A DNA stretch of 64,000 bases, from contig NZ_JAJAYI010000070.1 of the NCBI RefSeq assembly GCF_026786305.1, positions 1 to 64,000 on the forward strand, in the 5' to 3' direction. Made by a program: the position numbers and the translations under genes. This document shows, in pieces, positions 43,505 to 63,511 of this stretch (position 1 is the first letter of the stretch; each line of letters starts with the position of its first letter). The notes beneath the pieces are model-generated. The model worked only from the letters and a program-made list of their open reading frames with translations, was not told the DNA's origin and did not search any database. This DNA is from Cryobacterium sp. (GTDB lineage Bacteria; Actinomycetota; Actinomycetes; Actinomycetales; Microbacteriaceae).

Positions 43505-43629
43505 GCCTCCAGCCTATAAGGGGCGAAGCGGATGCCGCCTCCGCGGTATGGGGTGCGGCCTCCCTCGTGGTGCGATTGAATAGACGCAAACTGAATAGGT
43601 ACAAAACACCGACAGGCAGGAAGTTCACA

Positions 43630-45866: not shown

Positions 45867-45898
45867 GGGACCTCCTGGGTCGTTAATCAAACGTAATC

Positions 45899-46698: not shown

Positions 46699-46709
46699 CC
46701 CCGCAGTAC

Positions 46710-47699
46710 TCAGCCTTCGGCGGCGAGGCGCAGCACGGCCGCGGCCATCGCGGTCGTGGCGGGCAGGTCGGTCATCCACAGCGGAGCAGCCGCAGAACGG
46801 ATGCCGGCGGCCGCCAGCGCGGGCAGCGACGCGGCATCCGTTTCATCGATCAGCCACGCATCAAGTACTCCGCCTGAGCTCCGCGACCCATAGTGCACAC
46901 CCACACCCAGCGCACTCGTCTCGACTCCAATTGTCGACAGGCACGCGTCGGCCATGCCTCGCACCGCCGCACCGCCGATGATCGGGGACACCCCGACGAC
47001 CCGCGCGGACGTAGAACGCAGGGCCTCACGCACGCCCGGCACCGCCAGAATCGTACCGACCGACACGACCGGGTTCGACGGCGGCAGCACGACGAGGTCG
47101 GTCGTGCCGATGGCCTCGAGTACGCCCGGTGCGGCGACCGCTGACGCGAGCCCGCGCTGCTCGAACCCGGTCACGGCCACTCGGGCGCGGTACCGCACCC
47201 ACCATTCCTCAAAATGGATACAGTCACCCGCAGCGTGCTCATCAGCATTCTCGGCGAGGCATGCGTGGGTTTCGATCGGCTGGTCACTCATCGGCAGAAG
47301 TCGAACGCCGGGCTGCCAGCGGCGGCAGAGAAACTCGGTGACCTCCGACAGGGTTGAGCCCGAGCGCAGAAGGTCGGTACGCACGATGTGCGTGGCGAGA
47401 TCGAGGTCGCCGAGCGTGAACCACGACCAGCCGCGGCCATAGGCGGCGATCTCGGCCGAGGCCCGGCGGGTTTCGTCGGGGCGGCCCCAGCCCTGCTCCT
47501 CGTTGATGCCGCCGCCGAGGGTGTACATGATGGTGTCGAGGTCGGGGCAGATGCGCAGGCCGTCGAGCCACATGTCGTCGCCGGTGTTCGCAATGACCGT
47601 CACGGCTGCGTCGGGGGCGGCGACGGCGAGCTGGGCGAGCAGTCCGCGGGTGAAGCGAGCTCCGCCGACGCCGCCGGCCAGCACGGTCACGCTCTTCAT
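46710..47699 (-). CDS. cofD: 2-phospho-L-lactate transferase
   Basis: A 329-residue CofD/FbiA: VLAGGVGGARFTRGL at the N-terminus, NTGDDMWLDGLRICPDLDT and LPPSNPVVSVGTIL. It transfers the phospholactyl or phosphoenolpyruvyl group from the CofC product onto the deazaflavin Fo. The ATG at 47699 overlaps the ABC ATPase stop by four bases, so cofD is the last gene of the transporter operon. Confidence 0.9.
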   Translation of the reverse strand: MKSVTVLAGGVGGARFTRGLLAQLAVAAPDAAVTVIANTGDDMWLDGLRICPDLDTIMYTLGGGINEEQGWGRPDETRRASAEIAAYGRGWSWFTLGDLDLATHIVRTDLLRSGSTLSEVTEFLCRRWQPGVRLLPMSDQPIETHACLAENADEHAAGDCIHFEEWWVRYRARVAVTGFEQRGLASAVAAPGVLEAIGTTDLVVLPPSNPVVSVGTILAVPGVREALRSTSARVVGVSPIIGGAAVRGMADACLSTIGVETSALGVGVHYGSRSSGGVLDAWLIDETDAASLPALAAAGIRSAAAPLWMTDLPATTAMAAAVLRLAAEG

Positions 47700-48487
47700 G
47701 ATTTGCCCGCCGATACGGCTGCCGCCGAGTACACGATGACCGGATGCCCGCCGCGTGGATGCTCCAGAATGAAGCAATCCACGCCATAGACGGCTCCGAT
47801 GATCTCGGGGGTGAGTACCTCGGCGGGCGTGCCGACGGCCACGAGCTGGCCACCGTCGAGAAGGAGGATCTGGTCGCAATACGCCGCCGCGAGGTTCAGA
47901 TCGTGCAGGGCCATGATCGCCGTCACCCCGAGCTCGCGCACCTGCCCGAGCAGCGAGAGCTGGGCACTCACGTCGAGATGGTTGGTCGGTTCGTCGAGCA
48001 GCAGCAGGCTCGGCTGCTGCGCCATGGCTCGCGCGATCTGCACGCGCTGCTGCTGTCCGCCGCTCAGCGTGTGCCAGGAACGATCGGCTAACGACGCCGC
48101 GCCGACCGCCTCGAGGGCGTCGAAAGCGACGGCGCGATCGTCGTCACCGCCGAACGAGCCCATCAGCTTGGTGCGATGTGGAATGCGCCCGAGGAGCACG
48201 ACCTCGAGCACGGTCAGTTCCACGCTCGGCGACGCATTCTGTTCGAGCAGGGCGACGCGGCGGGCCGCTTCGCGCCGGGGCAGCGACCCGACCGAGACGC
48301 CGTCGAGGGTGACGGTGCCGGCATCCGCTTTGTCGATGCCGGCGACGAGCCGCAGCAGGGTGGACTTACCGGCGCCGTTCGGCCCGAGTAGGCCGGTGAC
48401 ACTGCCGGTCGGCAGCGACGCTGAGACGTCGCGCAGAATTCTGGTGCCGTCGATGGCGAACGACAGTTGGTCGAGGTCTACGCCCAC
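47696..48487 (-). CDS. Putative F420-0 ABC transporter ATP-binding protein
   Basis: A 263-residue FecE-like ATPase: Walker A GPNGAGKST, signature LSGGQQQRVQI, Walker B LLLLDEPTNHLD. It starts at GTG 48487, ten bases inside the permease gene. Together with the permease and lipoprotein it forms the cassette type for which F420-0 import was proposed from gene co-occurrence (TIGR03868/03869/03873 models, from memory). Generic siderophore or cobalamin uptake is the alternative. Confidence 0.8.
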   Translation of the reverse strand: MGVDLDQLSFAIDGTRILRDVSASLPTGSVTGLLGPNGAGKSTLLRLVAGIDKADAGTVTLDGVSVGSLPRREAARRVALLEQNASPSVELTVLEVVLLGRIPHRTKLMGSFGGDDDRAVAFDALEAVGAASLADRSWHTLSGGQQQRVQIARAMAQQPSLLLLDEPTNHLDVSAQLSLLGQVRELGVTAIMALHDLNLAAAYCDQILLLDGGQLVAVGTPAEVLTPEIIGAVYGVDCFILEHPRGGHPVIVYSAAAVSAGKS

Positions 48488-49497
48488 AGGTGCGATTTCT
48501 TTCTCTTGATCAGCACAATAAACACCGGCACGCCGATGAACGCGGTGATGATGCCCACCGGCAGCTCGCGCGGGTCGAACACCGTGCGGGCGAGCGTGTC
48601 GGCGATGACCAGAAACAGTGCCCCGCAGACCGCCACGAGCGGCAGCAGCCGGCGGTGCCCGGGGCCGCTCACACCGCGCGCGAGGTGCGGCAGAATGAGC
48701 CCGACGAACCCGATCGCTCCACTGACGGCGACCATCGCGCCGGTCAGCAGCGCGACCGACCCGAGCAACGCCCAGCGGGTGCGATTGACGTTGATGCCGA
48801 GGCTCGCCGCCGAGGTATCGCCGAAGGCAAAGGCGTCCAGCCGGGTCGCCGACAGAAGGATGCCGGTGCAAACGACCAACACGGCCGTCGCTGCGATCGC
48901 GACGCTGCTCCAGGTGGCGCCAGCCACCGAGCCGAGCAGCCAGTTGAGAATCTCCCGGTAGGAATCGCCCTTGGCCGCCCAGAAGATGATGAATGAGGTC
49001 AGGGCGCCCGCGAGCTGCGCGATGGCGAGCCCCGCGAGTACGGCCCGCACCGGAGTGATCGTTCCGCCGACCCGGGCGATGCTGAGTGTTGCGACGAGGG
49101 CGAGCAGCGCGCCGAGAAAGGCGGCGAGGGGCAGGGCGAATCCGATGCCGAGAATGACGACGCCAACCGCACCGACGGATGCCCCGCTCGACAGCCCGAG
49201 CAGGTACGGGTCGGCGAGGGGGTTGCGTGTCACGCTCTGCATCACCGCGCCGCTCAGCGCGAGGCCGGTGCCCACCAGCGCGGCCGTGAGCACACGCGGT
49301 AGCCGCAACTGCCAGACGATCGAGTCGACCAGCACCGGAACCGGAGAGTCAGTCGGAATGCCGAGGTGAGCGCCGATACTGCCCGCTACCTGGGCCAGAC
49401 TCACCGCCGCCGGCCCAATGGTCACCGCCACGCCACACACGAGAACGAGGGCAACCGTGGCAATCACGAACCACCCGACGTAACGCCCCCGGGTCAC
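48478..49497 (-). CDS. Putative F420-0 ABC transporter permease (FecCD family)
   Basis: A 339-residue BtuC/FecCD-type permease with about ten helices: LRLPRVLTAALVGTGLALSG, NPLADPYLLGLSSGASVGA and IGFVGLILPHLAR are family hallmarks. GTG start. The family normally carries siderophores, heme or cobalamin; its place in an F420 locus is the reason for the F420 assignment. Confidence 0.82.
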   Translation of the reverse strand: MTRGRYVGWFVIATVALVLVCGVAVTIGPAAVSLAQVAGSIGAHLGIPTDSPVPVLVDSIVWQLRLPRVLTAALVGTGLALSGAVMQSVTRNPLADPYLLGLSSGASVGAVGVVILGIGFALPLAAFLGALLALVATLSIARVGGTITPVRAVLAGLAIAQLAGALTSFIIFWAAKGDSYREILNWLLGSVAGATWSSVAIAATAVLVVCTGILLSATRLDAFAFGDTSAASLGINVNRTRWALLGSVALLTGAMVAVSGAIGFVGLILPHLARGVSGPGHRRLLPLVAVCGALFLVIADTLARTVFDPRELPVGIITAFIGVPVFIVLIKRKKSHLWA

Positions 49498-49518
49498 GAG
49501 TTCTCCCGATTGTCCCGC

Positions 49519-49574: not shown

Positions 49575-49591
49575 CGGACAGGAGGTGGAGC

Positions 49592-50593
49592 TCACTCGTT
49601 CAGTTCGGCTAGTTGGGTGATGGTGGAGGCGGCAGCCTCGACGTTGCGAATGCCGGCCTCGGTGGCGGCGAACGGCAGAATGATATAGCGCTGGTTCTTC
49701 ACGGCGTCGAGCACCCGGGTGGCCGGGTCCGATTCGAGCTGGGCGATTTTCGATGCGGCGGTGTTCCAGGTGGCGTCGACGAGCACAATGACGCTCGGGT
49801 TGGCCGCGATGATCGATTCCCAGCCCACCGAGGTCCAGGTGTCGCTCACGTCCGCGAAAATGTTGGTGAGCCCGGCGGCCTCCATGATCATTTCCGGCGA
49901 GCCGATGCCGGCGCCGACGTAGGGGGAGGTCGTGCCGCTTGAATACCAGAGCGCCGTCGTAGTTTGGGCAGTCGAGGGCGTCAAGCCGGCGAGGTCGTCC
50001 TGCAACGTCCTGACCAACTTGGTGGCGGCGGGCTCGGCGCCAAAGATTTTGCCGGCCTCGTCAATTTCGGTGAACACGGAATCGAAGGTGAGGGGGTTGG
50101 GCATGAAGTCGCCCTTGCAGGCGGCCGGTGACACGTAGCTGCCGACGCCGAGCGCCGCGAGGGCATTGCGGTCGCCCACTCCGTCGGCGCTGAAGTTGGA
50201 TTCCCAACCGCCGTAGATGAAGTCGGGGTTCAGGCCAAGCACGGCCTCCTGGCCGGGAAGAAAGTCGCTGATCACGTTCAGGCCGGCGCCGGCCGGGGCG
50301 AGCGACTCGGGCAGCGGGCCGTCGAGAAAGGCCGAGCCGACAATGCGGTCGCCGAGGCCGAGGGCGAGCAAGAGCTCCGTCGCCGAGGACTTGATCGACA
50401 CGATGCGTTTGGGCGCGGCCGTGACGGTGACGTTCGTGCCGCAATTGTCTACGGTGAGCGGGTAGCTCGCGCTCGCGGCGGGGGTCTCGGCCGGTGTGGC
50501 GAGGGGAGTCGCCGCGGCGGAGCATCCGCTCAGCACCAGGGTCGCGCAGGTCGTGGCGATGATCATAGATCGGCGCACGGTGATGGGATTCAT
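49592..50593 (-). CDS. Putative F420-0 ABC transporter substrate-binding lipoprotein
   Basis: A 333-residue class III periplasmic binding protein (BtuF/FepB fold) with signal peptide and lipobox LSGC near residue 23. APKRIVSIKSSATELLLALG and the long linking helix DLAGLTPSTAQTT are typical. It would capture the ligand of the adjacent FecCD-type permease. Ligand identity (F420-0, Fo, or a siderophore/corrinoid) rests on neighbourhood only. Confidence 0.8.
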   Translation of the reverse strand: MNPITVRRSMIIATTCATLVLSGCSAAATPLATPAETPAASASYPLTVDNCGTNVTVTAAPKRIVSIKSSATELLLALGLGDRIVGSAFLDGPLPESLAPAGAGLNVISDFLPGQEAVLGLNPDFIYGGWESNFSADGVGDRNALAALGVGSYVSPAACKGDFMPNPLTFDSVFTEIDEAGKIFGAEPAATKLVRTLQDDLAGLTPSTAQTTTALWYSSGTTSPYVGAGIGSPEMIMEAAGLTNIFADVSDTWTSVGWESIIAANPSVIVLVDATWNTAASKIAQLESDPATRVLDAVKNQRYIILPFAATEAGIRNVEAAASTITQLAELNE

Positions 50594-50754: not shown

Positions 50755-52122
50755 CTACGACCAGCGCGCACCGACCGCGTGCACGGTCGAATCCAGCGGA
50801 TGTGCCGCCGCGGCGAGTGCCTCCGCCACCGGTCTGACGTTGTCGGTCAGGGCGCCGGCGGTCACCCGAATGAACGCGGGGCCGCCCTCGGTCGCCAGAA
50901 ACGGCGAGCCGCCGGCCACCCGAATACCGGAGGCGGCGAGGCGCACCATGGCGTCGCGCTCGTTCTGCACGGGTAGCCAGGTATTGATGCCGTCGGCCTG
51001 CACCACGTCGAGCCCAAAGGCGGTCAGAGCGTCGGCGAGGGCGCGCTGGCGGGCGAAGTAGATGCGGCGGGCCTCACTCACCTGCGCCATGCTCTCGCCG
51101 TTGGTGAGCAGATCGTGCAAAATCGTCTGCAGCATGCGGCTGGTCCAGCCCGGACCGAGCATGCGCCGCGACACAATCGGGTCGATGAGCGCGGCCGGAC
51201 CGCCGAGCGCGGCCATGCGAAGGTCTGGTCCGTGCGACTTCGAGAAGCTGCGCACGTGCAAGGTGCGGCCCGGCAGCCAGAGGCCGAGACTCACATCGGG
51301 GGCGATGCTGATCTCGGCGGAGTGGTCGTCTTCGATGACGATGGTGTCGGCGCTCGCCGACGTGTTCCGCAGTAGGCGGGCCAGTTCCTCGGCCCGATTC
51401 GCGGTCATCGACGCGCCGGTGGGGTTCTGCGCGCGCGGCTGCAGAAGAACGGCGGCCGGCCCGAGCTTCAGCGCTGCGGCAAAGTCGGCTGGAATGATGC
51501 CGTGCTCGTCAACGGCCACTGGCAGGCGTTCCAAGCCGAGCTGGTCGAGCAGGTCGAAGAACGGCGGAAACGACGGGTTCTCCATGATGACCCGGTCGCC
51601 GAACCGGGTCACCGCGTCAAGGCTGCGCGAGATCGCGTCGAGGGCGCCGTCGACGATGGTGATCGTCTCGACCGGGTATGGCCACGATGCCCGCAGCGCC
51701 TTGAGCAGCTCCGGAATGATCGGCAGGTCCTGGTAGCTCGGGGTCACCGCGCGCTGCGATACCCGCGAGAGCGCCGGTCCGAGCGCCGGCAGCAGCAGCG
51801 GGTCGGGCGTGCCGCGCGAGAGGTCGAGGCGGGCCGGTCCGACCGTACCGATCATGGATTGGCTACGGGCCGGCAACCACTTGGGTGCGGCATCCTGCAC
51901 GAAGGTACCGCCCCGACCGCGCGACACGATCAGGCCGACCGCCGAGAGCGCCTGCCAGGCGTGACTGACCGTGGCGGGGCTCACGCCGAGCTCACCGGCC
52001 AGCACCCGCACGGTGGGCAGGCGGTCGCCGGGTGTGAGCCGACCGGAGGCGATCAGCCGCCCGATGGCCGCGGCGATCCCCGCGGGGGTGCGCTGCTCAA
52101 TTTCGTCAATAAAGTTCGGCAT
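50755..52122 (-). CDS. MocR/PdxR-type GntR regulator with aminotransferase domain
   Basis: A 455-residue fusion: N-terminal GntR winged HTH (GDRLPTVRVLAGELGVSPAT) and a fold-type I aminotransferase domain with NPTGAS and the PLP lysine in LHVRSFSKSHGPDLR. MocR proteins sense PLP or amino-acid adducts. It is divergent from the pyrimidine catabolic operon, so it most likely controls that operon, perhaps by sensing beta-alanine or a related beta-amino acid. Confidence 0.85.
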   Translation of the reverse strand: MPNFIDEIEQRTPAGIAAAIGRLIASGRLTPGDRLPTVRVLAGELGVSPATVSHAWQALSAVGLIVSRGRGGTFVQDAAPKWLPARSQSMIGTVGPARLDLSRGTPDPLLLPALGPALSRVSQRAVTPSYQDLPIIPELLKALRASWPYPVETITIVDGALDAISRSLDAVTRFGDRVIMENPSFPPFFDLLDQLGLERLPVAVDEHGIIPADFAAALKLGPAAVLLQPRAQNPTGASMTANRAEELARLLRNTSASADTIVIEDDHSAEISIAPDVSLGLWLPGRTLHVRSFSKSHGPDLRMAALGGPAALIDPIVSRRMLGPGWTSRMLQTILHDLLTNGESMAQVSEARRIYFARQRALADALTAFGLDVVQADGINTWLPVQNERDAMVRLAASGIRVAGGSPFLATEGGPAFIRVTAGALTDNVRPVAEALAAAAHPLDSTVHAVGARWS

Positions 52123-52323: not shown

Positions 52324-53202
52324 ATGAGTACGGTTCCCACTAACACCAACAGCAGCCACGTCGTTCGAACCGCTATCACCCAAGCCACCTGGACCGGCGA
52401 CGAAGAATCCATGATTCACAAGCACGAGGGCTTCGTGCGCGCCGCAGCCGCTCAGGGCGTGCAGGTGATCTGCTTTCAGGAACTCTTTCACGGACCGTAT
52501 TTCGGCATCGTGCAAGACGCCAAATACTACGACTATGCGCAGGCCGTGCCCGGCCCGATCGTCGAACGGTTTCAGAAGCTCGCCGCCGAGTACAAGATGG
52601 TCATCGTCGTGCCGATGTACGAAGAAGAACAGCCCGGCGTGCTGTACAACACCGCCGCGGTCATCGACGCCGACGGAACCTACCTCGGTAAGTACCGCAA
52701 GCATCACATCCCCCATCTGCCGCAATTCTGGGAAAAGTTCTACTTTCGCCCCGGCAACACCGACTACCCGGTCTTCGACACCACGTACGGCAAGATCGGC
52801 GTCTACATCTGCTACGACCGGCACTTTCCCGAGGGCTGGCGCGCGCTCGGCCTGAACGGCGCCGAGATCGTGTTCAACCCCTCGGCCACCAAACCCGGCC
52901 TGTCCAACCGCCTGTGGGAGCTCGAGCAGCCGGCCGCCGCGGTCGCCAACCAGTATTACGTCGGCGCGAACAACCGCATCGGTAACGAAAAAGCCGAATT
53001 CGGCGACGAGGCCGTGACGTTCTACGGCAGTTCCTATTTCGTCGACCCCAAGGGCAACTACGTGGGCGAAGTCGCCTCGACCGACAGCGAGGAGATTCTC
53101 GTGCGCGACCTCGACCTCGGCGTAATTCGCGAGGTACGCAACTCCTGGCAGTTCTACCGCGACCGTCGCCCCGACTCCTACGAGACCCTCGTCGCGCCCT
53201 AA
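52324..53202 (+). CDS. Nitrilase-superfamily beta-ureidopropionase / N-carbamoylase
   Basis: A 292-residue carbon-nitrogen hydrolase with the catalytic Glu-Lys-Cys triad: Glu in CFQELFHGPYF, Lys in YRKHHIPH, Cys in YICYDRHFPEGWR. The sequence resembles beta-ureidopropionases (PydC) and N-carbamoyl-amino-acid hydrolases, which release beta-alanine or beta-aminoisobutyrate plus CO2 and ammonia. First gene of the cluster, followed 77 bases later by dihydropyrimidinase. Confidence 0.88.
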   Translation: MSTVPTNTNSSHVVRTAITQATWTGDEESMIHKHEGFVRAAAAQGVQVICFQELFHGPYFGIVQDAKYYDYAQAVPGPIVERFQKLAAEYKMVIVVPMYEEEQPGVLYNTAAVIDADGTYLGKYRKHHIPHLPQFWEKFYFRPGNTDYPVFDTTYGKIGVYICYDRHFPEGWRALGLNGAEIVFNPSATKPGLSNRLWELEQPAAAVANQYYVGANNRIGNEKAEFGDEAVTFYGSSYFVDPKGNYVGEVASTDSEEILVRDLDLGVIREVRNSWQFYRDRRPDSYETLVAP

Positions 53203-53279
53203 CAGGTCGCGCCCTAACAGCTCAGGCACGGGTTCGGCAGCATCCGCTACCCCCGGACAATTTCAGTGAAGAGGATGCC

Positions 53280-54698
53280 ATGAAGACTTTGATCAAGAAC
53301 GGCACCGTGGTCAACGCCACGGGTCGAGGGCTCGCCGACGTGCTCATCGACGGCGAAAAAATCGCGGCGGTGCTCGCACCCGGCTCGAATCTGCTCGGCT
53401 TCGATGTGGCGGGCAATGTTGACCGCGTCATCGACGCCGGCGGCAAGTACGTCATTCCCGGGGGCATCGACGCCCACACCCACATGGAGATGCCCTTCGG
53501 TGGTACCGAGGCCAGCGACACCTTCGAAACCGGCACCCGCGCGGCTGCCTGGGGCGGCACCACGAGCATTGTCGACTTCGTCGTGCAGTATGCCGGCGAG
53601 GACGTGCTCGAACGCTACGCCGCCTGGCAGCAGAAGGCCGCCGGCCAGTGTGCCATCGACTACGGCTTTCACCAGATCCTCTCCGATGTGCAAGACAGCT
53701 CGCTCACCGCGATGGACGAACTCATCGACGAAGGAGTCTCGAGTTTCAAACTGTTCATGGCCTACAAAGGCGTATTCCTCAGCGACGACGGCCAGATCGT
53801 CAAGGCCATGCAGCGCGCGGCCATGAACGGCAGCATGATCATGATGCACGCCGAAAACGGCAGCGTCATCGACCTACTCGTGCAGCAGGCGGTCGCCGCC
53901 GGCAACACGAGCCCGCTCTACCACGGACTCACCCGCCCGTGGCAGGCCGAAGAAGAGGCCACCCATCGGGCGATCATGCTCGCCAATCTCACCGGTGCAC
54001 CCCTCTATATCGTGCATGTTTCGGCCAAGCAGGCCGTGCACCAGATTGCCGAGGCTCGAGACAACGGCCAGAACGTTTTCGGTGAGACCTGCCCGCAGTA
54101 CCTCTATCTCTCGCTCGAGGACAACCTGGGCGCCCCCGGCTTCGAGGGCGCCAAGTGGGTCTGCTCGACGCCGCTGCGTGCGAAGGCTGAGGGTCACCAG
54201 CACCACATGTGGCAGAGCTTGCGCACGAACGACATTCAGATGGTCTCCACCGACCACTGCCCGTTCTGCATGAAGGGCCAGAAAGACATGGGCCTGACCG
54301 ACTTCTCGAAGATTCCCAATGGTATCGGCTCGGTCGAACACCGCATGGACCTGCTCTACCAGGGTGTTGTCGACGGCAAGATCTCGCTCGAACGCTGGGT
54401 CGAGGTGTGCTCCACGACCCCGGCGCGCATGTTCGGCATGTACGGCCAAAAGGGCGTCATCCAGCCCGGCGCCGACGGCGACGTCGTGATCTACGACCCG
54501 AACGGGCACACCTCGATCGGGCTCGATAAGACCCATCACATGAACATGGACTACTCCGCCTGGGAGGGCTACGAGATCGACGGCCACGTCGACACCGTCA
54601 TCTCCCGCGGCAAGGTCGTCGTCGACGACAACGCCTACCTCGGCGCCAAGGGTGACGGTCGCTTCATTAAGCGCGGCCTCAGCCAGTACCTGATCTAA
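53280..54698 (+). CDS. hydA: Dihydropyrimidinase / hydantoinase
   Basis: A 472-residue amidohydrolase with a binuclear zinc site: GIDAHTHMEMPF (HxH), carbamylated lysine in SSFKLFMAYKG, His in MMHAENG and IVHVSA, Asp in VSTDHCPF. It hydrolyses 5,6-dihydrouracil/dihydrothymine to N-carbamoyl-beta-amino acids, or hydantoins. Full family length. Followed after 9 bases by the LLM gene, so the three enzymes are one transcription unit. Confidence 0.92.
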   Translation: MKTLIKNGTVVNATGRGLADVLIDGEKIAAVLAPGSNLLGFDVAGNVDRVIDAGGKYVIPGGIDAHTHMEMPFGGTEASDTFETGTRAAAWGGTTSIVDFVVQYAGEDVLERYAAWQQKAAGQCAIDYGFHQILSDVQDSSLTAMDELIDEGVSSFKLFMAYKGVFLSDDGQIVKAMQRAAMNGSMIMMHAENGSVIDLLVQQAVAAGNTSPLYHGLTRPWQAEEEATHRAIMLANLTGAPLYIVHVSAKQAVHQIAEARDNGQNVFGETCPQYLYLSLEDNLGAPGFEGAKWVCSTPLRAKAEGHQHHMWQSLRTNDIQMVSTDHCPFCMKGQKDMGLTDFSKIPNGIGSVEHRMDLLYQGVVDGKISLERWVEVCSTTPARMFGMYGQKGVIQPGADGDVVIYDPNGHTSIGLDKTHHMNMDYSAWEGYEIDGHVDTVISRGKVVVDDNAYLGAKGDGRFIKRGLSQYLI

Positions 54699-54707
54699 GG
54701 GGATGGC

Positions 54708-55724
54708 ATGGATTTCGGAGCAGTACTACAAACCAACCCGCCGTCGGCGCGCACCGTGCAACTGGCCAAACTGGCCGAGGCGCACGGGTTCAGCCACGTC
54801 TGGACCTTCGACTCGCACCTGCTTTGGCAGGAACCCTATGTGATCTACAGCCGCATCCTGGCCGAGACCAGCAAGATTATCGTCGGCCCCATGGTCACCA
54901 ACCCGGCCACCCGCGACTGGACCGTGACGGCGTCGACCTACGCGACCCTGAACGAGATGTACGGCAACCGCACCATCTGCGGCATCGGTCGTGGCGACTC
55001 GGCGGTGCGCACCACCAACGGGGCGCCGAGCAACCTCAAGACCCTGCGCGAGTCGGTGCACGTCATTAGGGAACTGGCCAACTCTCGCTCCGTGGAATAC
55101 AACGGCGCGACCGTGCAGTTTCCGTGGAGCACGGGGTCGACTCTCGACGTCTGGGTCGCCGCCTACGGCCCGCTCGCGCTCAAACTCGCCGGCGAAGTCG
55201 GTGACGGATTCATTCTGCAAATGGCCGACCTCGACGTCGCCGAATGGATGATCAACACCGTGCGCACCGCAGCCTCGAACGCCGGCCGCGACCCGGCATC
55301 GATCAAGTTCTGTGTCGCCGCGCCCATGTATATCGGCAACGACTGGGAGCACATGCGCGACCAGTGCCGCTGGTTCGGTGGCATGGTCGGCAACCACGTC
55401 GCCGACATCGTCGCCAAGTACGGCACGGATTCACAGGTGCCCAAAGCGCTCACCGATTACATCAAGGGCCGTGAGGGCTACGACTACAACCAGCACGGCA
55501 AGGCCGGTAACGAGCATGCCGCGTTCGTGCCCGACGATATCGTCGACCGCTTCTGCCTGCTCGGCACTGCCAAAGACCACGTCGACAAGCTCGAGGCGCT
55601 CAAAGCACTCGGCGTCGACCAGTTCGCCGGCTACCTGCAGCACGACAATAAAGAAGAAACGCTGCGCGTCTATGGCGACACGATCATCCCGGCCATGGCC
55701 GAGCACGTCACGGCCACGAAGTAG
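54708..55724 (+). CDS. LLM-class flavin/F420 oxidoreductase of the pyrimidine cluster (TIGR03842-like)
   Basis: A 338-residue luciferase-like TIM barrel: GFSHVWTFDSHLLWQEPY, TICGIGRGDSAVRT, WVAAYGPLALKLAGEVGDGFILQ. It begins 9 bases after dihydropyrimidinase, so it acts on a pyrimidine-pathway intermediate. No PydA/PreT-PreA dihydropyrimidine dehydrogenase occurs in the window, so it may reduce uracil/thymine (or oxidise a dihydro-compound) with F420 or FMN. RutA is an LLM pyrimidine oxygenase but its product would not need dihydropyrimidinase. Cofactor and reaction are unproved. Confidence 0.8.
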   Translation: MDFGAVLQTNPPSARTVQLAKLAEAHGFSHVWTFDSHLLWQEPYVIYSRILAETSKIIVGPMVTNPATRDWTVTASTYATLNEMYGNRTICGIGRGDSAVRTTNGAPSNLKTLRESVHVIRELANSRSVEYNGATVQFPWSTGSTLDVWVAAYGPLALKLAGEVGDGFILQMADLDVAEWMINTVRTAASNAGRDPASIKFCVAAPMYIGNDWEHMRDQCRWFGGMVGNHVADIVAKYGTDSQVPKALTDYIKGREGYDYNQHGKAGNEHAAFVPDDIVDRFCLLGTAKDHVDKLEALKALGVDQFAGYLQHDNKEETLRVYGDTIIPAMAEHVTATK

Positions 55725-55751
55725 CCACCGCCAGATGAACGGACGCCCCGC

Positions 55752-56663
55752 ATGACCCCGTTGTCGCCGCCACTCCCGGAGCGGTTCGGCCTGCCTGCCC
55801 GCTGGCGGGGCGCGGTCTTCGGCGTTCTGGGCGTCGTGGTGCTCGCCCTGCTCTGGGAACTCTACACAGTGCTCGGGCCCGAGGATGGCGTCGTCATCGG
55901 CACCCTCACCGTGTTGCCCCGCACCAGCGACCTCGCCATGCCGCACCTGGCGACGATGTTTGCGCGCATCTTCGAACCGGTCACGGGCGCGGCGAGTGCT
56001 CGGCCGCTGTGGCAGGCCGTCGCGGCGGGGTCGCTGTTCACCCTCGGGATCGCCAGCGTCGGCTGGCTGGTTGGGGTCATCGTTGGCCTGGCGCTCGCCC
56101 TGCTCCTGCAGCGCTTTCGGCTGGCCGAGTCGGCGATTCTGCCGTGGATCATTTTGAGCCAGACCGTTCCCCTCATCGCCATCGCCCCGCTCGTGCGGCG
56201 CTGGGGCGCGCAGCTTCAGTTCGGCGAATTCACCTGGGAGAGCTGGATGTCGGTGGCACTGATCGCCTCCTACCTCGCGTTCTTCCCGGTGTCGATCGGC
56301 GCCCTGCGCGGACTTGGCTCGCCCGACGCCAACCACGTCGACCTCATGCACTGCTACGCGGTCGGCTGGTGGAAGACCCTGTGGCGGCTGCGCCTGCCGG
56401 CCAGTGTCGGCTACCTGCTGCCTGCGCTGCGGCTCGCCGCGGTCAGCGCCGTGGTCGGCAGCGTGGTCGCCGAGGTCTCCATCGGGCTGCGTGGCGGTAT
56501 CGGCCGCCTGATCGTCGAGTACGCCGGTTCGGCCGGTGGCGACCCGGGAAAACCCTGGGCTCCCATCTTCGGGTCGATCCTGGTCGGCCTGGTCGCCGCC
56601 GGCTTCGTGGGCCTGATCGGCCTGTTCCTTCGTCGTTTTCGCAGGGGAGAGGTCTCGATATGA
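55752..56663 (+). CDS. ABC transporter permease 1 (ThiX/SsuC-like)
   Basis: A 303-residue permease with six helices and the ABC loop near DLMHCYAVGWWKTLWRLRLP (EAA motif). Part of an NMT1/THI5-type importer with two different permease genes. Overlaps the ATPase gene by ATGA. Confidence 0.85.
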   Translation: MTPLSPPLPERFGLPARWRGAVFGVLGVVVLALLWELYTVLGPEDGVVIGTLTVLPRTSDLAMPHLATMFARIFEPVTGAASARPLWQAVAAGSLFTLGIASVGWLVGVIVGLALALLLQRFRLAESAILPWIILSQTVPLIAIAPLVRRWGAQLQFGEFTWESWMSVALIASYLAFFPVSIGALRGLGSPDANHVDLMHCYAVGWWKTLWRLRLPASVGYLLPALRLAAVSAVVGSVVAEVSIGLRGGIGRLIVEYAGSAGGDPGKPWAPIFGSILVGLVAAGFVGLIGLFLRRFRRGEVSI

Positions 56664-57523
56664 CCGGCAGAAGCACGATCGACAGCACGATTAGCCCCGC
56701 CGGTAACAGTTCCGCCGTTGACGTGCGCGGCGTCAGCCGCATTTTCGCCGCCCGCAGGGGTCCCGGCGTCACCGCCCTCGACGACGTGAGCCTCGTGGTC
56801 GCGCCCGGCGAATTCGTCTCCCTGATCGGGCCGAGCGGCTGCGGCAAGAGCACCCTGCTGCGCCTCATCGCCGACCTCGACACACCGACTGCCGGCAGCG
56901 TAGAGGTCTTCGGCAAGCCGGCCAGGCAGGCCCGTATCGACCAGGACTACGGCATCGCGTTTCAGCAGGCCGGGCTGTTGCCGTGGCGCACCGTCGCCGG
57001 CAACATCGAGTTACCGCTCGAACTGCACGGTGTGGGCAAGGCGGCGCGGCGGGCACGGGCAGCCGAACTGATCGAACTGGTGGGCCTGGCCGACTTCGCC
57101 GGCCACTACCCCGACCAGCTCTCCGGCGGTATGCAGCAACGCGTCGCGATCGCTCGTTCCCTCGCCGAGAGCCCGAGCCTCCTGCTCATGGACGAACCGT
57201 TCGGCGCCCTCGACGAGATGACCCGTGAGCGGATGCAGAATGAGCTCGTGCGCATCTGCGCCGAAACCGAGGCGGCGGTCGTGTTCGTGACCCATTCCAT
57301 TCCCGAGGCCGTTTTTCTCTCCAACCGTGTCGTCGTCATGTCACCGCGCCCCGGCCGCATCCGCTCGGTCGTCACCGTCGGACTTGGCGACAGGAGCCGC
57401 CGCGGCGAAGACCTGCGCGAAGACGAGGGCTTCTTTCAGGCGCTCAGCCAGGTGCGCGACCTGCTGCGCGGCGATGAGGCCGCGAGCACGCCGCAGGGTG
57501 CGCAGGGGGTGGAGACCCGATGA
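56660..57523 (+). CDS. ABC transporter ATP-binding protein (SsuB/ThiZ-like)
   Basis: A 287-residue ATPase: Walker A GPSGCGKST, Q-loop FQQAGLLPWR, signature LSGGMQQRVAIAR, Walker B LLMDEPFGALD. It energises the two neighbouring permeases. The ATG at 56660 overlaps the first permease stop; its own stop overlaps the second permease start. Confidence 0.9.
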   Translation: MTGRSTIDSTISPAGNSSAVDVRGVSRIFAARRGPGVTALDDVSLVVAPGEFVSLIGPSGCGKSTLLRLIADLDTPTAGSVEVFGKPARQARIDQDYGIAFQQAGLLPWRTVAGNIELPLELHGVGKAARRARAAELIELVGLADFAGHYPDQLSGGMQQRVAIARSLAESPSLLLMDEPFGALDEMTRERMQNELVRICAETEAAVVFVTHSIPEAVFLSNRVVVMSPRPGRIRSVVTVGLGDRSRRGEDLREDEGFFQALSQVRDLLRGDEAASTPQGAQGVETR

Positions 57524-57549
57524 GAGGCAGCCCGATGAGAGGCAGCCCG
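57520..57549 (+). repeat. Exact 15-bp duplication containing the start codon
   Basis: ATGAGAGGCAGCCCG occurs twice in tandem. The first copy carries the stop-start overlap with the ATPase gene, the second an alternative ATG. Confidence 0.95.
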
Positions 57550-58302
57550 CCGCGTCTGTTGCAGACGGTGCTCGCACCGATCGTCTTCGGCGTGGTCGTG
57601 GTGCTGCTCTGGCAGGCTGTTGTTACAGGGCTCGCGATCAAGGCGTTCATTCTGCCTGCCCCCCTCGCGATCGGCGCCGAATTCGGCTCCAACCTGCAGA
57701 ACGTCGCCAACGGCATGGCGGTTACCGGGCGAAACGCCCTCGTCGGCCTGCTGATCGGGGCTGTCCTGGGCATCCTGCTGGCGATCCTGTCAGCCCTGGC
57801 CCGGGTCTTCGATGACATGGCCGCGCCCGTGGTCGGTGCCCTCTCGGTCGTGCCGATCGTCGCCCTCGCCCCGGTGCTGTACACCATGTTTGGGGCCGGA
57901 GCCGAGACCGCGCGGCAGCTCGTCGCAGCGCTCGCCGTGTTCGTGCCGGTGTACTTCACTACCCTCAAGGGCCTGCGCCAGGTGCGCCCGGTGCACCGCG
58001 ACCTCATGCGCTCCTACGCCGTCTCAAGCGCCCAGGCGACCCGGGCGGTGACCCTCCCAACGGCGCTGCCGTTCGTGTTCACCGGGCTGCGCATCGCGTC
58101 GTCGCTCGCGGTCATCTCGGCGCTCATTGCCGAGTACTTCGGTGGTCCGGTCGGCGGTCTCGGCAAGTCCATCACCTCGGCGGCGGCGAGCAGCAATTAT
58201 GGTCTGGCCTGGGCTTACGTGCTCGGCTCGATCATCCTCGGACTGGTGTTTTTCTGCGCGGCGCTCGGTGTCGAGAAGCTGGTCAGCAGGCGCACCGGCT
58301 AG
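57520..58302 (+). CDS. ABC transporter permease 2
   Basis: A 260-residue six-helix permease with EAA motif RDLMRSYAVSSAQATRAVTL. It begins ATGA-overlapped with the ATPase, but the first 15 bases are exactly duplicated, giving MRGSPMRGSP and two usable starts (57520 and 57535). Probably pairs with permease 1 as a heterodimer. Confidence 0.87.
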   Translation: MRGSPMRGSPPRLLQTVLAPIVFGVVVVLLWQAVVTGLAIKAFILPAPLAIGAEFGSNLQNVANGMAVTGRNALVGLLIGAVLGILLAILSALARVFDDMAAPVVGALSVVPIVALAPVLYTMFGAGAETARQLVAALAVFVPVYFTTLKGLRQVRPVHRDLMRSYAVSSAQATRAVTLPTALPFVFTGLRIASSLAVISALIAEYFGGPVGGLGKSITSAAASSNYGLAWAYVLGSIILGLVFFCAALGVEKLVSRRTG

Positions 58303-58372
58303 GAAGCGCCGCCTAGACGTTCCATCGGCAGCAGCACCACCTTTCTCTGCATCAGCAATCAAGGAGGCAAAC

Positions 58373-59524
58373 ATGAAACACCGCACCACACGACTCGGCA
58401 CCATCGCAACAGTCGCCGCGCTCGGCGCGCTGGTTCTCAGCGGATGCAGCACCTCCGGCGGCACAGGTGGCGTGACCGACGCCGCTTCGGCCGGGCTCAC
58501 CCCGATCACCCTGCAACTGCAGTGGGTAGCGCAGGCCCAGTTCGCGGGCTACTACGCCGCGGTCGACCAGGGCTATTACAAAGACGAAGGCCTCGACGTC
58601 ACCATCGAAGAAGGTGGCCCCGACATCGTTCCGCAAGACGTGCTCGCGGCCGGCGACGTCGACTACGCCATCTCCTGGGTGCCCAAGGTGCTCGGCTCGA
58701 TCGAACAGGGTGCCAACATCACCGACGTCGCGCAGATCTTCGAGCGCAGCGCCACCACGCAGATCTCCTTCACAAACAAGGACATCACCACGGCCGCCGA
58801 CCTCACTGGCAAGAACGTGGGTAGCTGGGGCTTCGGCAACGAATGGGAGCTTTTCGCGGGCATGCAGCAGGCCGGTGTCGAGGTCGGCGATATCTCGCTG
58901 ATTCAGCAAGCCTTCGACATGAACGCGTTCCTCTCGGGTGACATCGATGCGGCGCAGGCAATGACCTACAACGAGTACGCGCAGGTGCTGGAAACCGAAA
59001 ACCCCGACACCGGTGAGCTCTACCAGCCCGAGGACCTCAACGTCATCGACTGGAACGACGAGGGCACCGCGATGCTCCAGGACGCCATCTGGGCCAACGC
59101 CGACAAGCTGGCGAGCGACCCGGACTACGCCGACAACACCGTGAAATTCATCAAGGCTTCGATCCGCGGCTGGATCTACGCGGCGAACAACGCCGAAGAG
59201 GCCGCCGGCATTGTTACCGCGGCCGGCTCCTCGCTCGGCCAGAGCCACCAGCTGTGGATGACCAACGAGGTCAGCAAGCTGATCTTTCCGTCCACCAACG
59301 GCGTCGGCCTGATCGACGAAGCCGCCTGGGCGAACACTGTCGATATTGCGATGAACACCAAGAACGAGACCGGAGCGACCATCATCACTGCAGAACCTCC
59401 GGCAACCGCGTTCTCGAACGAATACGTACAGAAAGCTCTCGACGAGCTGACCGCCGACGGTGTCGACGTGATGGGTGCCGATTGGGCCCCGATCGATGTC
59501 ACCCTGAATAAGGGCGGCAACTAG
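58373..59524 (+). CDS. ABC transporter substrate-binding lipoprotein (NMT1/THI5-like)
   Basis: A 383-residue lipoprotein with lipobox LSGC near residue 24. LQLQWVAQAQFAGYYAAVDQ and GYYKDEGLDVTI are the hallmark start of NMT1/THI5 domains, which bind pyrimidines (ThiY: formylaminopyrimidine), riboflavin or sulfonates. In this cluster a pyrimidine, hydantoin or dihydropyrimidine ligand is likely. ATG 58373 follows AAGGAGG. Confidence 0.88.
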   Translation: MKHRTTRLGTIATVAALGALVLSGCSTSGGTGGVTDAASAGLTPITLQLQWVAQAQFAGYYAAVDQGYYKDEGLDVTIEEGGPDIVPQDVLAAGDVDYAISWVPKVLGSIEQGANITDVAQIFERSATTQISFTNKDITTAADLTGKNVGSWGFGNEWELFAGMQQAGVEVGDISLIQQAFDMNAFLSGDIDAAQAMTYNEYAQVLETENPDTGELYQPEDLNVIDWNDEGTAMLQDAIWANADKLASDPDYADNTVKFIKASIRGWIYAANNAEEAAGIVTAAGSSLGQSHQLWMTNEVSKLIFPSTNGVGLIDEAAWANTVDIAMNTKNETGATIITAEPPATAFSNEYVQKALDELTADGVDVMGADWAPIDVTLNKGGN

Positions 59525-59648
59525 CCGCACCGCCTGGCTCGCGACCGATTGGCTGGCCGGGCGGCGGTATCCGCTACCCGGTCACTCCACAATTTACCTA
59601 ACGCACGACCTCTTCACCAGTACATCTAAACCGAAAGAAGCGATATTT

Positions 59649-60986
59649 GTGAACGACACCACGTTAGTAGGCACCGCGCAACTCGGACTGAACGAGAGCA
59701 CCACCGAGCTCGATCGCGCGCACGTCTTCCACTCATGGTCTGCACAGGCGGCGTTGACGCCGCTCGTGGTCGCCGGCGGCCTCGGCTGTCGGGTGTGGGA
59801 TCACGATGGGCGCAGCTACCTCGATTTCTCGAGTCAGCTGGTGAACGTGAATATCGGCCACCAGCATCCGGCCGTTATCAAGGCGATCACCGAACAAGCC
59901 CACACCCTGACCACCATTGCGCCGTCGACGGCCAACCTGTCCCGCGGCGAGGCGGCACGGCGCATCACCGACCGTGCCCCCGAGGGGTTCAACAAGGTCT
60001 TCTTCACCAATGGTGGAGCGGATGCGAATGAGAACGCCATCAGAATGGCCCGATTGCACACCGGTCGCGACAAGGTGTTCTCGCTGTACAAGTCGTACCA
60101 CGGCAACACCGGTTCGGCGATCGTCGCGACCGGCGACTGGCGCCGCATCCCCAACGAATATGCTCGCGGACACGTGCACTTCTTCGGCCCGTACCTCTAC
60201 CGCAGCGAATTCTGGGCGACCAGCGAGGCCGAGGAGTGCGCCCGCGCGCTGCACCACCTCGAACGCGTCATTCAGGGCGAGGGCGTGTCGTCTGTTGCCG
60301 CCATTCTGCTCGAGTCGATTCCCGGCACCGCCGGCATCATGATGCCGCCGGCCGGCTACCTGCCCGGCGTGCGCGCCCTCTGCGACAAGTACGGCATCGT
60401 GCTCATCCTCGACGAGGTCATGTGCGGCTTCGGCCGCACCGGCAACTGGTTCGCGTTCCAGGCCTACGACGTCGTGCCCGACCTGATCACCTTCGCCAAG
60501 GGCGTCAACTCCGGCTATGTGCCCACCGGGGGCGTGATCATCTCCGATGCCATTGCGGCGACCTTCGACGAGACCGTCTTTCCCGGCGGACTCACCTACA
60601 GCGGGCATCCGCTTGCCATGGCGTCGATCGTCGGCGCGCTCGATGCAATGCAGAGCGAGGGCATCGTCGAGAACGCCGCCCGCATCGGCCGCGACGTGCT
60701 CGAGCCGGGGCTTAAAGCACTGCAGGCCAAGCACCCGATCATCGGCGAGGTTCGCGGTGTCGGGGTGTTCTGGGCGGTTGAACTCGTCGCCGACCCCGAG
60801 ACCCGTGAACCGGTGAGCGCCGCCGTCATGGCGCGCGTGAAGGCCGAGCTGCTCGGCCGCAACCTGCTGCCGTTCCTTATGGAAAACCGCATCCACGTGG
60901 TGCCCCCGTGTGTCGTTACCGACGCCGAGGTCGCCGAAGCCCTCGCCATCTACGACGAAGTGCTCAGCCTCGACCTGCTCTCCTAA
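59649..60986 (+). CDS. Class III aminotransferase (beta-alanine/beta-amino acid : 2-oxoacid)
   Basis: A 445-residue fold-type I omega-transaminase: FSSQLVNVNIGHQHP, GGADANENAIRMAR, LDEVMCGFGRTGNWFA and the PLP lysine in ITFAKGVNSGYVPTGG. It would convert beta-alanine or beta-aminoisobutyrate, the ureidopropionase products, to malonate or methylmalonate semialdehyde. GTG start at 59649 after GAAAGAAG. Taurine or GABA transamination is the alternative. Confidence 0.87.
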   Translation: MNDTTLVGTAQLGLNESTTELDRAHVFHSWSAQAALTPLVVAGGLGCRVWDHDGRSYLDFSSQLVNVNIGHQHPAVIKAITEQAHTLTTIAPSTANLSRGEAARRITDRAPEGFNKVFFTNGGADANENAIRMARLHTGRDKVFSLYKSYHGNTGSAIVATGDWRRIPNEYARGHVHFFGPYLYRSEFWATSEAEECARALHHLERVIQGEGVSSVAAILLESIPGTAGIMMPPAGYLPGVRALCDKYGIVLILDEVMCGFGRTGNWFAFQAYDVVPDLITFAKGVNSGYVPTGGVIISDAIAATFDETVFPGGLTYSGHPLAMASIVGALDAMQSEGIVENAARIGRDVLEPGLKALQAKHPIIGEVRGVGVFWAVELVADPETREPVSAAVMARVKAELLGRNLLPFLMENRIHVVPPCVVTDAEVAEALAIYDEVLSLDLLS

Positions 60987-61015
60987 CCAACGGACCAACG
61001 AAAGGTTTCATCAGA

Positions 61016-62524
61016 ATGACTGTCACCACCGCAGTATCGCTCCTCACTCACTGGGTCGACGGGGCACCGTTCGCCGGCACCTCCACCCGCACCTCCCCGG
61101 TGTACAACCCGGCTACCGGGCTCGTGACCAAGAACCTCACCCTGGCCACAGCAGCCGATCTCGACGCTGCCGTCGCGATCGCCCAGGCCGCGTTCCCCGA
61201 GTGGCGCGACACCAGCCAGGCCAAGCGCCAGACCATCATGTACAACTTTCGCGAGCTGCTCAATGCGCGCAAGGGTGACCTGGCCGACATCCTCACCGCC
61301 GAACACGGCAAGGTGACCTCGGATGCCCTCGGCGAGATCATTCGCGGGCTCGAGGTCGTCGAATTCGCCCTCGGCATGCCGCACCTGTCAAAGGGTGACT
61401 ACTCCGAAAACGTCTCGACCGGCGTCGATGTCTACACGCTGCGTCAGCCGCTCGGCGTCGTCGGCATCATTAGCCCGTTCAACTTTCCGGCGATGGTTCC
61501 GCTGTGGTACTTTCCGATCGCGATTGCCGCCGGCAACACCGTCGTGCTCAAGCCGAGCGAGAAAGACCCATCGGCCGCTAACTGGCTCGCCGAGTTGTTC
61601 GCTGAGGCCGGCCTGCCCGCCGGCGTGTTCAACGTCGTCCACGGCGACAAAGAAGCCGTCGACGCTCTGCTGGTCAACCCCGATGTGCAGGCAATCTCGT
61701 TCGTCGGGTCGACTCCCATCGCCCGTTACATCTACGAAACAGCAGCCAAGCACGGCAAGCGTGTGCAGGCACTCGGCGGGGCCAAGAACCACATGCTCGT
61801 GCTGCCCGACGCTGACCTCGACCTGACAGCGGATGCCGCGGTCAACGCCGGATTCGGATCGGCCGGCGAGCGGTGCATGGCCATCAGCGTGATCGTCGCG
61901 GTTGAGCCCGTCGCCGATGAGCTCATCAAGAAGATCACCGAGCGTATGAGCGGCCTCAAGGTCGGCGACGGCACCCGCGGCTGCGACATGGGCCCGCTCA
62001 TCACCGAGGTGCACCGCGACAAGGTGGCAAGCTACATCGACATCGCCACGGCGGATGGCGCCACCGTTGTGGTTGACGGTCGCGGCATCGAAGTCGACGG
62101 CGCTGCCGACGGTTTCTGGCTCGGGCCCACCCTGTTCGACAACGTCAGCGTTGATTCGGCCGTCTACATCGACGAGATCTTCGGCCCGGTGCTCTCCATA
62201 GTGCGCGTCGACAGCTACACCGAGGGCCTCGACCTCATCAACGCGAGCCCGTACGGCAACGGCACGGCGATCTTCACCAACGACGGCGGCGCCGCTCGCC
62301 GGTTCCAGAACGAGGTGCAGGTCGGTATGGTGGGCATCAACGTGCCGATCCCCGTTCCGGTGGCATACCACTCCTTCGGTGGCTGGAAGAACTCCCTGTT
62401 CGGTGACGCGAAGGCCTACGGTCCGGCCGGCATCAACTTCTTCACCCGCGAGAAGGCCGTGACGAGTCGTTGGCTCGACCCGAGCCACGGCGGCATCAAC
62501 CTCGGGTTCCCGCAGAACCAGTAG
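61016..62524 (+). CDS. mmsA: CoA-acylating (methyl)malonate-semialdehyde dehydrogenase
   Basis: A 502-residue ALDH-superfamily enzyme: VVGIISPFNFPAMVPLWYFP, LGGAKNHMLVLPDADLD and catalytic Cys in GFGSAGERCMAISV, the MmsA/IolA signature. It oxidises malonate or methylmalonate semialdehyde to acetyl- or propionyl-CoA with CO2 release, the last step after the aminotransferase, 29 bases upstream. Confidence 0.92.
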   Translation: MTVTTAVSLLTHWVDGAPFAGTSTRTSPVYNPATGLVTKNLTLATAADLDAAVAIAQAAFPEWRDTSQAKRQTIMYNFRELLNARKGDLADILTAEHGKVTSDALGEIIRGLEVVEFALGMPHLSKGDYSENVSTGVDVYTLRQPLGVVGIISPFNFPAMVPLWYFPIAIAAGNTVVLKPSEKDPSAANWLAELFAEAGLPAGVFNVVHGDKEAVDALLVNPDVQAISFVGSTPIARYIYETAAKHGKRVQALGGAKNHMLVLPDADLDLTADAAVNAGFGSAGERCMAISVIVAVEPVADELIKKITERMSGLKVGDGTRGCDMGPLITEVHRDKVASYIDIATADGATVVVDGRGIEVDGAADGFWLGPTLFDNVSVDSAVYIDEIFGPVLSIVRVDSYTEGLDLINASPYGNGTAIFTNDGGAARRFQNEVQVGMVGINVPIPVPVAYHSFGGWKNSLFGDAKAYGPAGINFFTREKAVTSRWLDPSHGGINLGFPQNQ

Positions 62525-62596: not shown

Positions 62597-63511
62597 CTAT
62601 GGCTCGGTGTGGGATTGCTGTACCCGCGCAGCTTCGGCTTGGAGTTCCTCTATGACGGTGCGCACGGCAAGGCGTTCGGCGCGGTCAGGGCGCATGAGCG
62701 CAACGATCTGCCGCTCCGATTCGATGCCGCGCAGCGGTTTGAGCACGAGGCGGCCGGGCTGGCCGCCGCCGGAGGTGTAGCGCGGCACGAGCGCGATACC
62801 GAGCCCGGCAATCACGAACGATTCGATCAGGGCGAGGTCGGCGAAGCGCTGCGACATCGACAGGCGTGCACCGGCCTCCTGTTCGATCGCGTGCAGAATA
62901 CGCTCGAACGGATAGCCGTCGGTCACGCCGATCCAGGTCTCCCCGACGAGATCGCGCGGGCCGACCCAGACGCGATCGGCGAGCGGATGCCCCACCGGCA
63001 GCCCCACATCGAGCGGCTCCGTCATGAGCGGAACGACCGTGAGGCCCCGGCCGGCCCAGGACAGCTGCCCGCTCATCGAGTGGGCAAGCACGATGTCGTA
63101 CTCGGCCGTGAACGCGGGGAAGTCGCTCAGTTCGGGGTCTTCGTCGGCGCAGTTGAGCACGAGGTCGGCGCCGAGTTTCTTGATGACGCCGGGCAGCAGC
63201 ATCTGGCCGGCGGTGGGAAAGGTGACGAGGCTCACTTCGCCGCTGGCCTGGTTGCGAAATTCGTCCCAGAGTGCGGTGGCCTTCGCGAGCGACACCGCGA
63301 CATCCGTTGCACTGCGGGCCAGGGCGCGGCCCGCGTCGGTGAGTACGAGGCCGCGACCCTGCCGCTGGGTGAGGGGCAGGCCGGCTTCTCGTTCGAGCAC
63401 CTTGAGCTGCTGGGAGACGGCCGAGGGGGTGCGGTGGGTGGCGAGGGCGACCGCCGTGACGCTACCGCGATCGGCGAGTTCGCGGAGGAGTTCGAGTCGC
63501 TGCACGTCCAT
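62597..63511 (-). CDS. LysR-family transcriptional regulator
   Basis: A 304-residue LTTR: N-terminal HTH (VTAVALATHRTPSAVSQQLK) and a LysR substrate-binding domain. The target is not evident: it converges on mmsA and diverges from a 62-residue membrane protein gene. A palindrome overlaps its own start, suggesting autoregulation. Confidence 0.87.
   Translation of the reverse strand: MDVQRLELLRELADRGSVTAVALATHRTPSAVSQQLKVLEREAGLPLTQRQGRGLVLTDAGRALARSATDVAVSLAKATALWDEFRNQASGEVSLVTFPTAGQMLLPGVIKKLGADLVLNCADEDPELSDFPAFTAEYDIVLAHSMSGQLSWAGRGLTVVPLMTEPLDVGLPVGHPLADRVWVGPRDLVGETWIGVTDGYPFERILHAIEQEAGARLSMSQRFADLALIESFVIAGLGIALVPRYTSGGGQPGRLVLKPLRGIESERQIVALMRPDRAERLAVRTVIEELQAEAARVQQSHTEP

Follow-up and report, generated by a model that had tools for sequence, protein, structure and literature searches.

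Introduction

Reductive pyrimidine degradation begins with the reduction of uracil or thymine ahead of ring opening by dihydropyrimidinase, a step usually carried out by dihydropyrimidine dehydrogenase (PreA/PreT or PydA), which uses NAD(P)H and is built from DHO_dh plus FAD/Fe-S domains. The pyrimidine monooxygenase RutA, which also acts on uracil, belongs to the LLM superfamily. This superfamily includes the enzyme considered here, a member of the NCBIfam family TIGR03842 (F420_CPS_4043), which is catalogued as a hypothetical equivalog and whose model name and description give no substrate. The enzyme is encoded in a 64,000-nucleotide stretch of DNA from Cryobacterium sp. (contig NZ_JAJAYI010000070.1, positions 1 to 64,000), referred to throughout as the window, where its gene starts 9 bases after the end of a dihydropyrimidinase gene. 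We consider it likely that TIGR03842 is an F420H2-dependent uracil/thymine reductase, which would replace dihydropyrimidine dehydrogenase, a member of other protein families, as the first reductive step of the pathway. Compared with the catalogue entry, and as far as our searches show, the present analysis adds the substrate assignment, the link to pyrimidine degradation and the link to F420 salvage.

A similar role has been proposed in a related purine pathway. A 2025 paper on uric acid in Chloroflexota predicts an F420-dependent reductase of the luciferase family which, as in the window, occupies the ring-reduction slot ahead of an amidohydrolase (PMC12507026). This putative enzyme would act on a purine-derived substrate; its role is a prediction, and it may or may not be a TIGR03842 protein. 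We regard it as an encouraging parallel. According to a 2021 review, studies of F420H2-dependent reductases in bacteria had been confined to the actinobacteria, and Paracoccus denitrificans makes only traces of F420 (PMC8498797). The full-text matches listed in our searches, a collection mostly outside subscription papers and preprints, do not describe any pyrimidine reductase that depends on F420, although such a description may be in print elsewhere, and passages from papers on kasichelin and beta-alanine synthase offered nothing on this enzyme.

Results

The window enzyme scores 590 bits against TIGR03842 over residues 2-330, above the curated cut-off of 295.45, and one protein each from Leisingera, Devosia and Chloroflexi likewise exceeds this cut-off. 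By sequence and by fold it is nearest to enzymes whose entries name F420, and its nearest solved structures include Mer, the F420-dependent methylenetetrahydromethanopterin reductase, a C1 enzyme of methanogens with which it shares 26-29% identity. RutA is distant in the fold ranking, and its model, TIGR03612, was absent among the 24 NCBIfam models matched by the window enzyme (E <= 0.001). Residues such as H37, W40, N65, R95-S98, N229 and H230 are invariant.

The distribution of TIGR03842 follows that of F420 sources in a sample of 199 genomes from the window's family, Microbacteriaceae, in which FO synthase was identified as CofH (E <= 1e-10) and a putative F420-0 importer by its substrate-binding protein (at least 300 bits). 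TIGR03842 is present in 92 of these genomes and CofD in 89; among the 72 that contain both, the two genes share a contig in 64 and lie within about 20 kb of each other in 63. FO synthase was detected in 46 genomes (only 12 over the strict cut-off, with a short fragment in G469) and the importer in 60. A source of F420 accompanies TIGR03842 in 91 of the 92 genomes, this being FO synthase in 39, the importer in 52 and never both, and the single genome with neither (G445) is an assembly of 170 contigs. FO synthase or the importer occurs in just 15 of the 107 genomes without TIGR03842, and when the strict importer cut-off is applied the figures become 88/92 versus 14/107. These statistics ignore kinship, an objection that is partly answered by a genus-level count compiled by hand (an F420 source in 44/44 genera with TIGR03842 versus 4/41 without) and by a switch of source within a genus (importer in G404, FO synthase in G332 and G460).

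Three window genes match all three families of the putative importer (TIGR03868, TIGR03869 and TIGR03873), two of them over cut-off, and adjoin the pyrimidine cluster. The NCBIfam authors reportedly proposed this F420-0 importer because its hosts are without F420 synthesis apart from CofE. Importer and FO synthase were never observed in the same genome, against 13.9 expected co-occurrences among the 199, a mutual exclusion that we take as a strong sign of deazaflavin salvage; the count leaves aside 15 of the 75 genomes matched in the importer search, whose scores of 146-233 bits probably reflect other FecB-type proteins. The window genome (G000) and its three sampled genus mates gave no FO synthase match at the same CofH threshold, so the source of F420 in the window organism would be import; CofG was likewise not found in the window genome (E <= 1e-60), and the organism probably does not make F420 from scratch. 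An organism without F420 had been suspected because CofG was not found, an idea that was dropped once CofD, CofE and the importer were located in the window.

In Proteobacteria, TIGR03842 is often physically linked to F420 biosynthesis. The plasmid search yielded 13 records with TIGR03842. Leisingera caerulea carries cofG-cofH-cofD-cofC-cofE-npdG-TIGR03842 in a row and, divergent from this operon, genes for an NCS1 symporter, dihydropyrimidinase, a Zn hydrolase, a transaminase and NAD(P) transhydrogenase. In Paracoccus alcaliphilus, TIGR03842 is the last gene of the same cof operon and is followed by an ABC importer. The Paracoccus denitrificans locus (L066) contains NCS1, dihydropyrimidinase and Zn hydrolase genes together with cofGHDCE-npdG, and PreA was not matched in that genome (G494, E <= 1e-40). 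We examined loci from named organisms more widely using the 80 best-scoring loci out of 593 that were confirmed, a set biased to the Leisingera-like query and including near-duplicates (matches of at least 80 bits). Dihydropyrimidinase is present in 40 of these, dihydropyrimidinase or a ureidopropionase type in 49 and any pathway gene in 58; a cof or npdG gene is present in 56, both classes of gene in 38 and neither in 4. npdG itself occurs in 46 loci and transhydrogenase genes in 10, and the whole F420-0 importer is found in nine, from Devosia, Pelagibacterium and one Hyphomicrobiales metagenome-assembled genome (MAG). PreA, PreT and RutA are absent from all 80 loci. One Devosia locus (L107) unites an FGD equivalog, CofE, the importer (its ATPase again under cut-off) and TIGR03842 in a single gene group, with no pyrimidine gene adjoining. 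Of 48 named genomes with TIGR03842, 36 gave a CofG match, and seven of the 12 without it have an importer operon. A FastTree tree of 82 rows separates a proteobacterial-Chloroflexi side from a mainly actinobacterial side, and places the importer-type Devosiaceae proteins inside the former, next to Aquamicrobium, which has a cof operon. Taken with the neighbourhoods, the tree therefore has both kinds of linkage, with F420 genes and with pyrimidine genes, on either side of its deepest split. A Leisingera-like cof-TIGR03842 operon, with 98% identity in the LLM protein, was also seen on a contig labelled Nocardioides marinus (L062, JAHVJD010000013.1), which is probably mislabelled or contaminated.

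The association with pyrimidine degradation is also seen in a sample of 296 genomes from the actinobacterial phylum, 62 of which encode TIGR03842 over cut-off; CofG (E <= 1e-60) was detected in 147 of the 296 and in 51 of the 62. Up to 20 kb was fetched around the gene in 60 of these genomes (all except the window's own and G268). Dihydropyrimidinase is present in 44 of the 60 loci and a nitrilase- or Zn-type ureidopropionase in 54, 54 also being the number with one or other hydrolase, and in most of the six loci without, L193 being an exception, a contig end truncates the stretch. For control, we used the 20 highest-ranking LLM loci of this listing that fell under the TIGR03842 cut-off, passing over fragments and repeats. 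Dihydropyrimidinase occurs in two of them, and either type of hydrolase in four; since nine control stretches also measure less than 19 kb, the contrast of 54/60 versus 4/20 is not exact, but it implies that the arrangement is not due to chance. No PreA, PreT or RutA gene is present in the 60 neighbourhoods. In one of the loci (L201, G225:C1:2193491-2194476) the TIGR03842 gene is matched in two overlapping pieces, reflecting a frameshift or sequencing error.

The original statement that there is no PreA-PreT holds for the host genome as far as tested: this assembly of 109 contigs (3.06 Mb; completeness 100, contamination 3.5) contains one DHO_dh match over cut-off and no PreA match (E <= 1e-60), PreT not having been searched genome-wide. 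A tblastn search with RutA at 1e-10 gave no match at the genome's five LLM loci and their flanks of about 1.5 kb, this being the extent of the RutA search. Nor was PreA found in any of the 62 phylum-sample genomes that encode TIGR03842 (E <= 1e-60).

Several observations weigh against a uracil/thymine reductase that runs on F420. PreA is present in only two of the 234 phylum-sample genomes without TIGR03842, so that its absence from those with TIGR03842 is weak evidence. Amongst the 48 named TIGR03842 genomes, seven encode PreA over cut-off (three Leisingera, Aquamicrobium, Devosia psychrophila, Limimaricola and a Geminicoccaceae MAG) and five more give matches under it (142-219 bits, that of G514 at 219 bits being full length), which implies that PreA and TIGR03842 are not mutually exclusive. 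No pathway gene was matched in 22 of the 80 named loci. None of the 60 actinobacterial loci has an F420 gene beside TIGR03842, confining the physical link within actinobacteria to the window's family. If the excluded weak importer matches are counted, two TIGR03842 genomes (G372 and G456) have both importer and CofH. Moreover, CofD is present in 40 and missing from 20 of the 60 importer genomes. No published assay of any TIGR03842 enzyme was found in the literature searched.

With respect to CofD, 18 of the 20 TIGR03842 genomes without it have the importer and the other two have CofH, which implies that the importer's cargo may differ between genomes: it may be FO where CofD is present and F420-0 or F420 where it is absent. 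The fetched stretches of these 20 genomes contain dihydropyrimidinase in every case and importer genes nearby in 12, and tblastn within them revealed no divergent CofD beside the importer.

The seven genomes with PreA, in which there would be no need for a second uracil reductase, raise the question of whether the enzyme, though F420-dependent, reduces some other ring (a modified pyrimidine, for instance, or one derived from a purine) to supply dihydropyrimidinase. Importers vary between lineages, as might be expected in that case, and the Chloroflexota prediction concerns a purine-derived ring (PMC12507026). The downstream genes (ureidopropionase type, transaminase, including the AptA type in Leisingera, and methylmalonate-semialdehyde dehydrogenase) nevertheless fit uracil and thymine, and PreA is not over cut-off in 41 of the 48 bearers, making this alternative unlikely in our view. 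The prediction of an F420H2-dependent pyrimidine reductase in the slot of dihydropyrimidine dehydrogenase is well supported by the co-occurrence with F420 sources, by the cof operons and by the lack of PreA matches here and in the 62 phylum genomes, whereas the argument from an empty slot is not universal, failing where PreA is present too.

The choice of cofactor was also considered. The LLM superfamily holds many enzymes that use flavin mononucleotide (FMN), and since a cofactor cannot be deduced from fold similarity alone, TIGR03842 might use reduced FMN like RutA or other LLM monooxygenases, with the nearby F420 genes serving other enzymes. A branch of Chloroflexi-like bearers is relevant to this, and adds to the points against our reading: no F420 source was found in four Chloroflexi and one Pleurocapsa-labelled MAG, whose genomes were searched for CofG but not for the importer, CofD or CofE. 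This branch either scavenges F420 by another route or uses another cofactor. On the other hand, no flavin reductase is encoded in 10 neighbouring frames from two of the Chloroflexi loci and the Pleurocapsa-labelled locus (the families found were DUF433, Uma2, M16 peptidase and 23S intervening-sequence protein, one frame matching none), dihydropyrimidinase would be superfluous alongside an oxygenase that opens the ring itself, and the near-complete co-occurrence with F420 sources, the cof operons that end in TIGR03842 and the Mer-like rather than RutA-like sequence and fold all speak against FMN. We consider FMN dependence, which the original prediction had offered as an alternative, very unlikely, and the use of F420 by TIGR03842 enzymes to be strongly supported by these computational results. 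The Chloroflexi-like loci (L123, L126, L128, L130 and L135) contain pyrimidine genes despite having no CofG match, and in L126 and L130 Uma2-type genes lie between and behind the LLM and dihydropyrimidinase genes.

An F420 enzyme could also operate in the opposite direction, as a dehydrogenase that reduces F420 with an intermediate from further down the pathway, perhaps the semialdehyde or an alcohol, and supplies F420H2 elsewhere, which is the direction in which the fold relatives FGD and Adf run. We judge this extremely unlikely: many loci already have an F420 reducer alongside (npdG in 46/80, FGD in Devosia), the later steps have enzymes of their own, and the first step would be left without one.

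The genes of the window are listed in Table 1. Profile matches confirmed the genes and coordinates originally assigned to 52324-62524, including the position of the LLM gene. The pathway steps, which had been described as encoded in order, are only loosely so, with the amidase gene first and the importer genes between those for the LLM enzyme and the transaminase. The best equivalog for this amidase is N-carbamoylputrescine amidase (TIGR03381), under its cut-off, together with a CN_hydrolase family match, so we presume rather than assign a ureidopropionase. Hydantoin, also suggested as a substrate, is the less likely one: beta-amino acids derived from six-membered dihydropyrimidines are what the transaminase and CoA-acylating semialdehyde dehydrogenase would be suited to. 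The MocR-type regulator, matched in 14 of 20 fetched stretches of the window's family, may sense a pathway amine or pyridoxal phosphate.

The F420 genes at 43567-50593 had been overlooked. The FGD-like enzyme, whose true start is probably somewhat later than 43567, falls below both the FGD equivalog TIGR03554 (210 bits, cut-off 420) and TIGR03885 (314 bits, cut-off 399). TIGR03873 is the best of 182 models for the importer ATPase, 97 bits ahead of the next (240), yet the match is under cut-off. The gap of about 1.25 kb between the CofE and CofD genes (45454-46709) contains no confident gene; by eye, its left end seems to include a SnoaL-like frame, which when taken in full matches nothing in Pfam.

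Table 1. Annotated genes of the window, in order of position
Feature	Coordinates	Strand	Evidence
FGD-like F420-dependent LLM oxidoreductase (TIGR03557), possible F420 reducer	43567..44631	+	278 bits, cut-off 210
CofE, F420-0:L-glutamate ligase	44632..45453	+	TIGR01916 237 bits (cut-off 181); NF009810 305.7 (cut-off 304)
CofD, 2-phospho-L-lactate transferase	46710..47699	-	TIGR01819 342 bits (cut-off 257); Pfam CofD
ATPase, putative F420-0 ABC importer	47696..48481	-	Best model TIGR03873 337 bits, cut-off 372
Permease (BtuC/FecCD type), putative F420-0 ABC importer	48478..49497	-	TIGR03869 461 bits, cut-off 437
Substrate-binding protein, putative F420-0 ABC importer	49592..50593	-	TIGR03868 414 bits, cut-off 392
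MocR-type (GntR + aminotransferase-like) regulator	50755..52122	-	Divergent from pyrimidine cluster
Carbon-nitrogen hydrolase, presumed beta-ureidopropionase	52324..53202	+	PF00795 231 bits; TIGR03381 262 bits, cut-off 410
Dihydropyrimidinase / D-hydantoinase	53280..54698	+	TIGR02033 558 bits, cut-off 393
LLM oxidoreductase TIGR03842, proposed F420H2-dependent uracil/thymine reductase	54708..55724	+	590 bits, cut-off 295; fold; neighbourhoods
ABC importer permease A	55752..56663	+	BPD_transp_1
ABC importer ATPase	56660..57523	+	Profile matches; start overlaps permease A stop
ABC importer permease B	57520..58302	+	BPD_transp_1
NMT1/THI5-type substrate-binding protein	58373..59524	+	PF09084 127 bits
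Class III aminotransferase, presumed beta-alanine/beta-aminoisobutyrate transaminase	59649..60986	+	NF004718 (PRK06062) 741 bits, cut-off 472
CoA-acylating (methyl)malonate-semialdehyde dehydrogenase (MMSDH)	about 61016..62524	+	TIGR01722 684 bits, cut-off 448.5
LysR-type regulator	62597..63511	-	Profile matches

Discussion

From the gene content and family memberships we infer the substrate, the direction of reaction, the importer cargo and each of the following chemical steps. Pyrimidines would be taken up by the NMT1-type ABC importer, or by NCS1 symporters in other lineages. If the chemistry resembles that of dihydropyrimidine dehydrogenase, TIGR03842 would then transfer a hydride from F420H2 to C6 of the uracil or thymine ring, while C5 would gain a proton. 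The dihydropyrimidine ring would be opened by dihydropyrimidinase, the resulting N-carbamoyl-beta-amino acid cleaved by the amidase, and the beta-amino acid transaminated to a semialdehyde that is converted to acetyl- or propionyl-CoA. In the window organism, the BtuCDF-type importer would bring in a deazaflavin (FO or F420-0) from which CofD and CofE finish F420. NpdG, transhydrogenase or FGD and FGD-like enzymes would keep F420 reduced, a task that may fall to the FGD-like enzyme in the window.

We also lean, with less assurance, towards a broader view in which the chief use of F420 in many bacteria is to supply reducing power for uracil and thymine degradation via TIGR03842, and auxotrophs obtain it from others, like a shared vitamin, by means of a B12-type importer; the Devosia gene group would then represent a complete module that imports the cofactor, adds glutamates, reduces it and uses it.

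If the proposed role is correct, the reduction of uracil and thymine, a central catabolic step, has a second and unrelated solution that runs on F420, and F420 gains a concrete physiological role both in Proteobacteria and in the window's family. The putative transporter family would become a testable route for cofactor scavenging, and F420 may be a traded vitamin. Since TIGR03842 is present in 62 of the 296 genomes sampled from the phylum and in 92 of the 199 Microbacteriaceae genomes, many gaps left by dihydropyrimidine dehydrogenase in metabolic models could close.

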